Source: Ahniella affigens (GTDB lineage: Bacteria > Pseudomonadota > Gammaproteobacteria > Xanthomonadales > Ahniellaceae). Taken from it: a stretch of 64,000 nucleotides of DNA. Under the pieces are notes generated by a model. That model was not told the origin of the DNA and searched no databases. It worked only from the letters and a program-made list of their open reading frames with translations. This document shows, piece after piece, positions 50,385 through 52,484 of this stretch (the stretch's first letter is position 1; the number at the start of each line of letters is the position of its first letter). Position numbers and translations under genes: made by a program. The DNA lies in NCBI RefSeq assembly GCF_003015185.1, contig NZ_CP027860.1:3462501-3526500 (forward strand). Reading direction: 5' to 3'.

Positions 50385-52484
50385 TCAGTAGACGTCGTGA
50401 ACCGTGTTGAACGTATTGAACTTGCCGGTCGGTGTCACAATTTCCGGGCCCTTGATCACGGCCTTCAGCTTCAGCGTCTTGTCATCCACAACAACCAGAG
50501 CGCTTTCTTCCTTCGAGCCGCTCCACACCGAAAACCACACTTCATCGCCCGCCTGGTTGTATTCGGGTTGGACGACGCGTTTCGGGCCAGGCCCGAGCTT
50601 TGCCCACTCGGCGATCGGCAGCACCTTGTAGCCTTGGTCCAAGTGCTCGGTGTCGAACACGGCAACCGTCTGACTGAACTTGACGTCAGGATTCAACGGC
50701 GTATCAACATACAGATGCTTGCTCTTTGGATGCGTCTTGACGAACAACGAACCGCCGCCCTGCCCGTTCAGCACCTCGACGACTTTCCAAGCCTGATCGG
50801 GATGATTAACTGGATCCGTTCCGACCAGACTGATCTTCTCGTTGCCGAGTGCACTGGTCACCCAGACTGGGCCGTACTTCGGATGCACAAAGTTCGCGCC
50901 ACGACCCGGATGCGGGATCTTGTCGGCATCCACCAGATTGACCATCTTGCGTTCCTTCGAATCGACCACAGCAATCTTGTTCGACTGATTGGCGGCCGTC
51001 AGGAAGTAGCGATGCGTCGAGTCCCAACCGCCATCGTGCAGGAAGCGCGCAGCATTCAGCGTTGTGACTTGCAGGTTTTCGATGTCAGAGTAGTTGACGA
51101 GCAAGATGCGACCGGTTTCCTTGACGTTGACAATGAATTCCGGGTGCTCGTGGCTGGCCACGATGGCGGCGACACGTGGCTCCGGGTGGTACTCCTGGGT
51201 GTCCACCGTCATGCCACGGGTCGATACGATCCTCATCGGTTCCAGCGTCGGGCCGTCCATGATCACGTACTGCGGCGGCCAGTAACTCCCAGCAATCGCA
51301 TAGCGGTCTTCATAGCCCTTGTACTTGCTGGTCTCCACCGAGCGCGCTTCCAGGCCTACTTTGATTTCGGCCACGATCTGCGGCGGACTCATCCACAGAT
51401 CGATCAAGTCGATCTTGGCGTCGCGGCCGATGGTGTAGACGTAGCGCCCCGAATCGGACATGCGGGAAATATGGACTGCGTAACCCGTCGGCAGTACGGC
51501 AACGACTTCCTTCTTGTCGCCATCAATGATCGCCACCTTGCCGGCGTCGCGAAGCGTCACCGAGAAGAAGTTCTCGATGTTACGGTTGTGCATAGGCTTG
51601 GTCGGCCGCTGATCGACCGGCACCAGCACCTTCCAGCTTTCGCGCATCTCCTTCATGCCGAATTCGGGCGGGTTTGGCGGATCATGTTGCAGGAACCGGG
51701 CCATGATATTGACCTCTTCCTTGCTGAGCTCACCCGAGGTACCCCAGTTCGGCATCCCCGCAGGCGAACCGTAGTTGATCAGCGCTTCCAGATACTGCGT
51801 ACCCTTGGCGCGCGTGATATCAGGCGTCAGTGGCTTGCCCGTCGCACCTTTGCGCAGCACGCCATGACAGCCGGCGCAACGCTCAAAAAATATCTGCGTC
51901 GCGCGATTGAACTCCGGACGACTGATCGCCGGCGCATCAGGATTGACGACCATTTCGACTGTCTCAGACGGCACGGTTGACGCACCGGCCTGATACTTCA
52001 TTTCGGCTTCCTTGGTTCCCGGATGCCGCTCGCCTTGTGCCGGATCGGTCGACACGGACAGGGTCTTACGGGCGGCGCCGACCTCAGCGGCTTTGACCGA
52101 GCCGCCCGGATTGCCCCAGCTTTGATAGACATAGGTCACGATGTTCGCAACATCGGCATCGCTCAGATGACTCATCGCGGGCATCACGTTGTTGTATTCG
52201 ACGCCGTTGACGATGAGCTTCCCATTGATGCCCTTCAAGATCGACGAAAGCACCGAATTGCGATCGTTCTTGGCCAGAAAGTCAGAGCCAGCCAGTGGCG
52301 GAAACGCACCGGGCAAGCCGGTGCCCGCAGGTTGGTGACAGGCTGCACAATTTGCCAAGAAGGCCGCTTCGCCCGCCTGATTGCCTTGTTTCGGCAAGCG
52401 TTCGTTAACAGTATCGGATTCGGCGGCCAGTGCGGCGCTTGCCAACACACTCATGAACAGCAGTGCAGATCGATGTGCACGCAT
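50385..52484 (-). CDS. nirS: cytochrome cd1 nitrite reductase with extra N-terminal cytochrome c domain
   Basis: NirS reduces nitrite to nitric oxide in the periplasm. The 699-residue protein (known NirS about 560-600) has a signal peptide, then an extra cytochrome c domain (heme CAACH, Cys46-His50) with a [20 protein letters not shown] end. The canonical c domain follows (CAGCH, Cys203-His207; [20 protein letters not shown]), then the d1 propeller from about residue 290 (YAVHIS with His338, [10 protein letters not shown] with His445/His447). Start ATG 52484 has AGGAGG 5 nt upstream. The nirE/nirF/nirC/nirM cluster is not nearby. FNR-type boxes lie upstream. Confidence 0.97.

Follow-up and report, generated by a model that had tools for sequence, protein, structure and literature searches.

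The gene nirS, which encodes the cytochrome cd1 nitrite reductase NirS, is a standard marker gene for denitrification. In Escherichia coli, the outer membrane (OM) receptor PqqU (YncD), whose ligand is known, mediates TonB-dependent uptake of pyrroloquinoline quinone (PQQ) for a periplasmic apoenzyme whose cofactor the cell does not make. The haem d1 cofactor of NirS is synthesized from siroheme via NirDLGH, NirJ, NirF/NirC and NirN, and the final steps as well as the insertion are periplasmic, as outlined in an excerpt of PMC13168839. Chloroflexi encode a NirS preceded by two cytochrome c domains (C1-C2-NirS), in a neighbourhood described without nir genes in a section of Schwartz et al. 2022 (PMC8756737). 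NirS clades are partly distinguishable by the presence of nirBEFJNT genes according to a passage of PMC10999283, and the absence of nir genes in some NirS clades may already be on record (cf. the same passage of PMC10999283). Among haem receptors, PhuR binds haem by a His and a Tyr (excerpt of PMC12670364), and the haem-site residues of HemR are His128 and His461 (excerpt of PMC6449446). Narrow word queries of the open-licence literature returned no proposal of haem d1 scavenging or of a haem d1 receptor. Here, we describe a nirS gene with two c-type haem sites, and the gene for a PhuR-like TonB-dependent receptor next to it, in a stretch of 64,000 nucleotides of Ahniella affigens DNA (assembly GCF_003015185.1, contig NZ_CP027860.1, positions 3,462,501 to 3,526,500 of the forward strand), which is referred to as the window.

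The sequence shows that the NirS of the host has kept its c and d1 haem sites intact, that none of the haem d1 pathway proteins for which we searched is encoded in the genome, and that a receptor gene is paired with nirS across an FNR/DNR-type promoter. We consider it probable that such hosts are haem d1 auxotrophs and that the locus works as a nitrite reductase unit which scavenges its cofactor, with haem d1 as the putative ligand of the receptor. We also lean towards the broader view that a guild of denitrifiers, comprising nearly all sampled NirS carriers of one gammaproteobacterial order, Woeseiaceae and others, is unable to make haem d1 and pirates it from other denitrifiers via a dedicated OM receptor.

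The nirS gene (50385..52484, minus strand) encodes 699 residues, in which Pfam recognizes, in this order, Cytochrom_C (E-value 1.3e-16), Cytochrome_CBB3 and Cytochrom_D1 (1.6e-153). The added N-terminal cytochrome c domain, C1 (residues 37-121; 52122..52376, minus strand), contains CAACH at residues 46-50; the usual NirS cytochrome c domain, C2 (residues 193-265; 51690..51908, minus strand), contains CAGCH at residues 203-207 and aligns to Pseudomonas aeruginosa NirS; and the d1 propeller (residues 302-694; 50403..51581, minus strand), assigned by Pfam and by alignment to solved NirS, contains H338, H483 and H525. The first-pass annotation had the interval, the length, both haem motifs and the propeller right, as open reading frame (ORF) and Pfam analyses confirm; it left the strand unstated, and the plus strand of this interval does not code for nirS.

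Residues 158-699 match solved NirS with 911 bits, and the C2-d1 part is ~70% identical to P. aeruginosa NirS. In the alignment, H338, H483 and H525 correspond to H182, H327 and H369 of the P. aeruginosa protein, which we take to be the d1 ligand (H182) and the catalytic residues (H327 and H369), and the His-to-Ala chain 1hzu agrees with the H327 column. The d1-ligand His and both catalytic His are kept in 78 of 78 two-haem NirS and in 36 of 36 single-haem NirS. The window protein has the features by which a NirS is recognized in sequence, i.e. a c-type haem domain, a d1 propeller, the proximal His and two catalytic His. The mean predicted local distance difference test (pLDDT) score of its AlphaFold model is 79.5, with low values in parts of the C2 surroundings. 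Structure prediction and alignment to known NirS had both been proposed as checks in the first pass. The structure of NirS was not a source of new findings: the C2-d1 fold matches solved NirS and nothing further emerged.

Relatives were collected by scanning 84,980 species genomes, and the best 80 of at least 589 loci, ranked against the two-haem window query, were kept. Two CxxCH sites are present in 72 of these and one site in eight, so that with the window there are 73 two-haem loci, a recurrence of two sites ahead of d1 that is far beyond chance. The ranking favours the layout of the query, and the share of 72 in 80 should therefore not be read as a prevalence. By record labels, the 80 loci belong mostly to Lysobacterales, Woeseiaceae, Wenzhouxiangella, Marinicella, Pseudidiomarina, Kangiella and unnamed gammaproteobacteria; two Acidobacteria (L016 and L026) and one Verrucomicrobiota are also among them, so that three phyla are represented by label. 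We also surveyed 397 genomes of the window's order, which includes genomes matching Dokdonella immobilis and Wenzhouxiangella sediminis (at NCBI: Lysobacterales, Chromatiales). A PF02239 match at E<=1e-30 is present in 59, and 58 of these are NirS-grade. In 57 of the 58 it is the single such match, in a frame of 697-828 residues; G436 is canonical with two PF02239 matches, and G474 has only a 552-residue match that is not NirS-grade. From this survey 29 loci were returned, 28 of which carry two haem sites.

Two-haem NirS is, in total, a common variant. The first pass had named a common NirS subfamily with the same layout that still uses separate donors as evidence that would count against a built-in donor; the layout half of this, a common subfamily, is what we found. 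In a tree of the C2-d1 core (114 rows, duplicates L128, L132 and L140 dropped; a quick tree without a mixture model), the 78 two-haem rows form two groups within a supported set of 86 that includes eight single-haem rows, and the outermost row in one of these groups is L059, a locus whose genome has haem d1 genes but lacks the receptor. The two-haem form may, as far as this sequence tree goes, be of single origin. Spread by plasmids was considered and rejected: 196 plasmid records match, but no full two-haem NirS is among the 30 listed matches.

We searched genomes for markers of the haem d1 pathway, i.e. PF17805 (NirDLGH), PF02239 (NirS/NirF/NirN), NirJ and NirC. The window's genome (two contigs, 100% complete) contains one strong PF02239 match, which is nirS itself, zero PF17805 matches and no NirJ match at E<=1e-10; its best NirC match (5.9e-7) is NirS itself, the rest being weak cytochrome matches. 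The genome thus lacks the set that defines a canonical nirS denitrifier (NirDLGH, NirJ, NirF, NirN and NirC), and the genome search proposed in the first-pass annotation found no NirC, NirJ or NirF.

The same pattern was observed in a survey of the class. Among 377 genomes that are at least 95% complete, 79 have a PF02239 match at E<=1e-30 and 42 are NirS-grade (E 1.6e-141 or better). Exactly four PF17805 matches were detected in 35 of the 42 and none in seven, i.e. the window's own genome, G184, G310, G315, G377, G383 and G394, all with two CxxCH sites in NirS. Each of these seven orphan genomes has one PF02239 match at E<=1e-30, so NirF and NirN are also missing. Among the 35 canonical genomes, the 28 checked have one CxxCH site, the other seven being judged by frame length only (574-641 residues). 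NirC was detected at E<=9.1e-24 in seven of seven canonical genomes but in none of the seven orphan genomes.

PF17805, PF02239 and NirJ were also searched in the genomes of 50 of the 80 loci, selected by us (46 two-haem and four single-haem). PF17805 was found in seven, comprising the four single-haem genomes and those of two-haem L026, L039 and L059, and in the same seven PF02239 has extra strong matches (E<=2.3e-29) while NirJ is detected at E<=5.3e-97. The remaining 43 of the 46 two-haem genomes have no PF17805, no strong NirJ and no further PF02239 match better than 3.4e-10. Isolates that carry the locus but no d1 genes include Dokdonella immobilis, Marinicella litoralis and Pseudidiomarina donghaiensis (L011, L054 and L063). 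The 57 single-match genomes of the order survey and the genomes of L028, L047, L056, L067 and L068 lay outside the PF17805 searches. Missed homologues were rejected as an explanation, because identical searches do detect the pathway in single-haem genomes and in L026, L039 and L059. Incompleteness was likewise rejected for the class survey, in which each of the 42 genomes is at least 95% complete, and for the window's own genome, which is complete; the 50 locus genomes come without completeness values. In L039 (Verrucomicrobiota), the two-haem NirS lies within a compact cluster (4824 to ~13000) labelled nirE, nirJ, nirF and nirDLGH by similarity, and no linked receptor is present there.

The receptor gene of the window (52648..54891, plus strand; an alternative in-frame ATG at 52678 is possibly the true start) encodes a full-length match to TonB-dependent haem receptors with FRAP and NPNL-type boxes, which exceeds the curated cut-offs by small margins (328.7 versus 323.75 bits for TIGR01786 and 318.2 versus 316.85 bits for TIGR01785). 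Its nearest solved structure is PhuR 8the (537 bits by sequence; template modelling (TM) scores of the fold 0.84/0.89, 29% identity). A receptor of this kind adjoins nirS in 60 of the 73 two-haem loci (in one at 2.1 kb), and all of these are nearer to the linked set than to paralogs. The receptor gene lies upstream on the same strand in 28, divergently in 17, downstream on the same strand in 11 and convergently in four (the arrangement of L006, L018, L030 and L034, with overlapping ORF starts, was set by eye); nirS-receptor adjacency is therefore kept across four gene arrangements. In L068 only the receptor end is visible, at a contig edge, and in L013 the linked-type receptor lies elsewhere in the genome. 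L026, L039 and L059 have haem d1 genes instead of a linked receptor beside nirS (the neighbouring receptor of L026 is an unrelated outlier, and a 539-bit relative lies elsewhere in that genome); thus, the receptor tracks the absence of the d1 genes and not the extra domain.

No linked receptor was found at single-haem nirS, neither in the eight loci nor in 28 loci of the class (flanks of ~1.5 kb in 27). In class genomes, the receptor profile is matched in seven of seven near-complete orphan genomes versus one of 30 canonical genomes, there far from nirS. In the order survey, the linked receptor lies within ~1.5 kb in 24 of 28 two-haem loci; among the remaining four, L202/L211 has it 1.2 kb beyond nirS, one is from the genome of L005 (2.1 kb) and one from that of L013 (elsewhere). 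The 42 aligned linked receptors group with the L013 copy in a single clade, and all 13 paralogs fall outside it (SH-aLRT, an approximate likelihood-ratio test, 93, unstarred), in a quick tree without a mixture model from which L026 was removed as an outlier and the partial or distant L170, L171 and L176 were left out. Distances among the 42 linked receptors follow those among their NirS (r 0.83, 0 of 2000 permutations), a correlation to which shared species history contributes. Away from nirS, the window's genome encodes a further receptor (L157, C1:3777908-3780094, 729 bits), which belongs to a neighbouring clade; Wenzhouxiangella sp. XN79A (L172) has one as well. A TonB receptor of a different family is present at each of L017 (7278-9686), L028 (3015-5263) and L035 (7619-9774), with Pfam run on those of L017 and L035 and with a split frame in L028 and L035.

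The divergent nirS/receptor gap of 163 bp contains an FNR/DNR-type box, TTGATGTCGATCAA (52608..52621), which matches the typed consensus exactly. Boxes of the FNR type with at most one mismatch occur in 24 of 56 promoter regions, whereas shuffled sequences predict 0.67 and the frequency at 474 control ORFs, which are unmatched neighbouring reading frames, is 3.8%; L005, with its 2.1 kb gap, and three cut loci were excluded from this count. A promoter of the FNR/DNR type ties the receptor to anaerobic or nitric oxide (NO) conditions and not to iron alone. Control by Fur was considered and rejected; even the closest sites differ from a typed 19-bp Fur consensus at 6 to 11 positions.

The best solved relative of C1 is the C-terminal cytochrome c of the three-domain copper NirK (113 bits), with Thermus c552 at ~67 bits. 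On plasmids, its top-ranked match is nirK of Azoarcus sp. KH32C, with 52% identity across 85% of the query, and Thermus plasmids among the listed matches carry a separate cytochrome gene resembling C1 near nirS. C1 as a tethered electron donor is plausible and fits this likeness to NirK and c552. The first-pass annotation had proposed that C1 is a built-in donor replacing a separate cytochrome and that this accounts for the lack of such genes nearby. Because C1 resembles the NirK-tethered cytochrome, the donor part is therefore plausible, and there is indeed no nirC-type neighbour near nirS in the neighbour map or with the NirC profile (nirM had no separate search). Given that NirDLGH, NirJ, NirF, NirN and NirC are all absent, however, donor replacement alone is a poorer account of the missing genes than absence of the whole haem d1 set. 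The neighbouring receptor went unmentioned in the first pass.

If hosts scavenge haem d1, the receptor would, at low oxygen or in the presence of NO, bind d1 that other denitrifiers release, or else a late precursor, for example dihydro-haem d1. It would carry d1 over the OM into the periplasm, where apo-NirS would be loaded directly; as d1 insertion into NirS is periplasmic, no inner-membrane transporter would be needed. C1 would replace a separate donor by handing electrons to the haem of C2, from which they would reach d1.

Several observations weigh against haem d1 scavenging. Free haem d1 in nature is an assumption, and the receptor is still over the cut-off of generic haem receptor families. 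At the sites that we take to hold the iron ligands of PhuR, placed in the linked family by alignment, the 42 linked receptors have Gly (27), Thr (12) or Ser (three) and never His, and Asn in 42 of 42 in place of Tyr; no conserved His lies between their FRAP and NPDL boxes, the sole conserved His column being H385 (39 of 42). The window receptor accordingly has neither the His/Tyr pair of PhuR nor HemR-type His in the plug and between FRAP and NPNL. Close paralogs share the invariant Asn, so the change at the Tyr site alone does not single out haem d1, and a residue exclusive to the linked clade was sought in vain: each position conserved in 40 of 42 recurs in at least one of the four nearest paralogs. 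The case for haem d1 as the ligand comes instead from gene absence, linkage, co-divergence, the promoter and the intact d1 site. The linkage has exceptions. L017, L028 and L035 carry a different TonB receptor directly upstream of two-haem nirS, possibly by independent receptor replacement; L015, L016, L047, L056 and L067 have no such receptor in flanks or genome, and L015 and L016, the two of these five covered by the d1-gene search, also lack PF17805; and the order locus L190/G464 (L190/L210) shows no receptor within 14 kb. Conversely, canonical genome G294 has a 613-bit receptor. This receptor (L158, C1:3174939-3177185), the sole one among 30 canonical genomes over E 1e-80, lies beside genes that by eye resemble ExbB/ExbD/TonB. 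As to the pathway, weak radical S-adenosylmethionine (SAM)/NirJ matches occur in 10 of 44 NirJ-less genomes, reaching 162 bits in the genome of L016, and the window's genome has two further PF02239 matches of ~34 bits, above the Pfam cut-off, in frames of 1065 and 932 residues. NirF and NirN in canonical genomes mostly score 355-475 bits for PF02239, far above these two, and with a single strong match we conclude that the window's genome has no NirF or NirN. Finally, Wenzhouxiangella AB-CW3, a pure culture whose NirS may be of either type, slowly reduces nitrite (excerpt of PMC7691419).

Slow nitrite reduction by a pure culture of a related genus would be expected if hosts made haem d1 by a non-homologous pathway and the receptor imported other cargo, e.g. 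haem or iron for many cytochromes. L015 and L016, with neither receptor nor PF17805, point the same way, as does a strongly conserved NirS with intact d1 ligands. We regard this explanation as unlikely: every step after siroheme for which we searched is missing along with the others, no replacement enzyme is evident in the largest neighbour clusters (by eye, with Pfam on nine proteins, the remainder of the genomes being unscreened), and the adjacency of receptor and nirS in four arrangements would be left unexplained. The membership of the receptor in haem receptor families would also suit a NirS that works without haem d1 and uses another tetrapyrrole in its place (e.g. haem b or a modified haem taken up from outside), but close identity of the C2-d1 part to P. 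aeruginosa NirS and the universal retention of the residues equivalent to H182, H327 and H369 make this improbable. Similarly, the likeness of C1 to the NirK-tethered cytochrome and Thermus c552 could reflect a plain fusion, in which C1 is a built-in donor and nothing more, and both the receptor and the lack of nir genes are coincidental; we give this little credence, because neither the opposed pattern of d1 genes and receptor nor the co-divergence of NirS and receptor would then be expected, and the two-haem genomes with d1 genes (L026, L039 and L059) lack a linked receptor beside nirS. The lack of a known d1 supply in the genome would, at the extreme, fit a relic apo-NirS without cofactor and without a role in nitrite reduction. 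Strong conservation of NirS over orders and three phyla, FNR-type promoters, and NorB genes in the flanks of 13 of the 73 two-haem loci render a relic highly improbable. Haem d1 auxotrophy with scavenging thus stays the reading that we prefer.

Downstream of nirS, in the same orientation and after a gap of 10 bp, lies an Alginate_exp-type OM porin gene (PF13372; 49151..50374, minus strand); the porin cluster occurs in 31 of 81 loci, and the porin may be part of the same unit as nirS and the receptor. The window's genome also contains a gene for a 767-residue NorB-type NO reductase, presumably a qNOR, which is 80% identical to one near nirS in L005. No haem-utilization genes were recognized by eye in the 45 largest neighbour clusters, and no profile search was made for them. 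A SirB-family membrane protein is encoded in the neighbourhoods of 19 loci (e.g. L008 6772-7173; Pfam on one). Elsewhere in the window, 45876-48611 encodes a secreted-looking protein of 911 residues with a weak, below cut-off similarity to Sortilin-Vps10 and the C-terminus GDGLFVDSFE, which is possibly a sorting tag.

If many nirS carriers are haem d1 auxotrophs, counts of this gene overstate independent denitrifying capacity, and pure cultures may fail at nitrite reduction for lack of the cofactor. Haem d1 would, in this view, become a public cofactor whose sharing controls who reduces nitrite in a community, nitrite reduction in sediments and wastewater would hinge on cofactor exchange, and the linked protein would be the first receptor for haem d1. 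Purified haem d1 and the isolates already available would allow a direct test of scavenging.

Compared with canonical cd1 NirS (P. aeruginosa 1NIR and Paracoccus 1AOF), the window NirS aligns over the full length of C2 and d1 and has the same d1 and catalytic His, but it carries one more cytochrome c at its N-terminus, its genome yielded no genes for nir biosynthesis, and a receptor gene lies next door. It shares with Chloroflexi C1-C2-NirS the two cytochromes N-terminal to NirS, a likeness of layout and not of compared C1 sequences; unlike there, the layout is here common in gammaproteobacteria and goes with a TonB receptor and with no d1 genes, and the limit given by Schwartz et al. does not apply to the layout itself. 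The tethered cytochrome of the three-domain copper NirK (2yqb/3ziy) is the closest solved relative of C1, although there the cytochrome is attached at the C-terminal end of a nitrite reductase unrelated to NirS. PhuR of P. aeruginosa is the closest solved homologue of the receptor by both sequence and fold, whereas the linked receptor is without the His at the plug site, has Asn for Tyr, and is tied to nirS and FNR-type boxes. By analogy, the proposed unit would follow the same logic as PqqU/YncD, i.e. an OM receptor serving a periplasmic apoenzyme, with another cofactor and a receptor of another subfamily.
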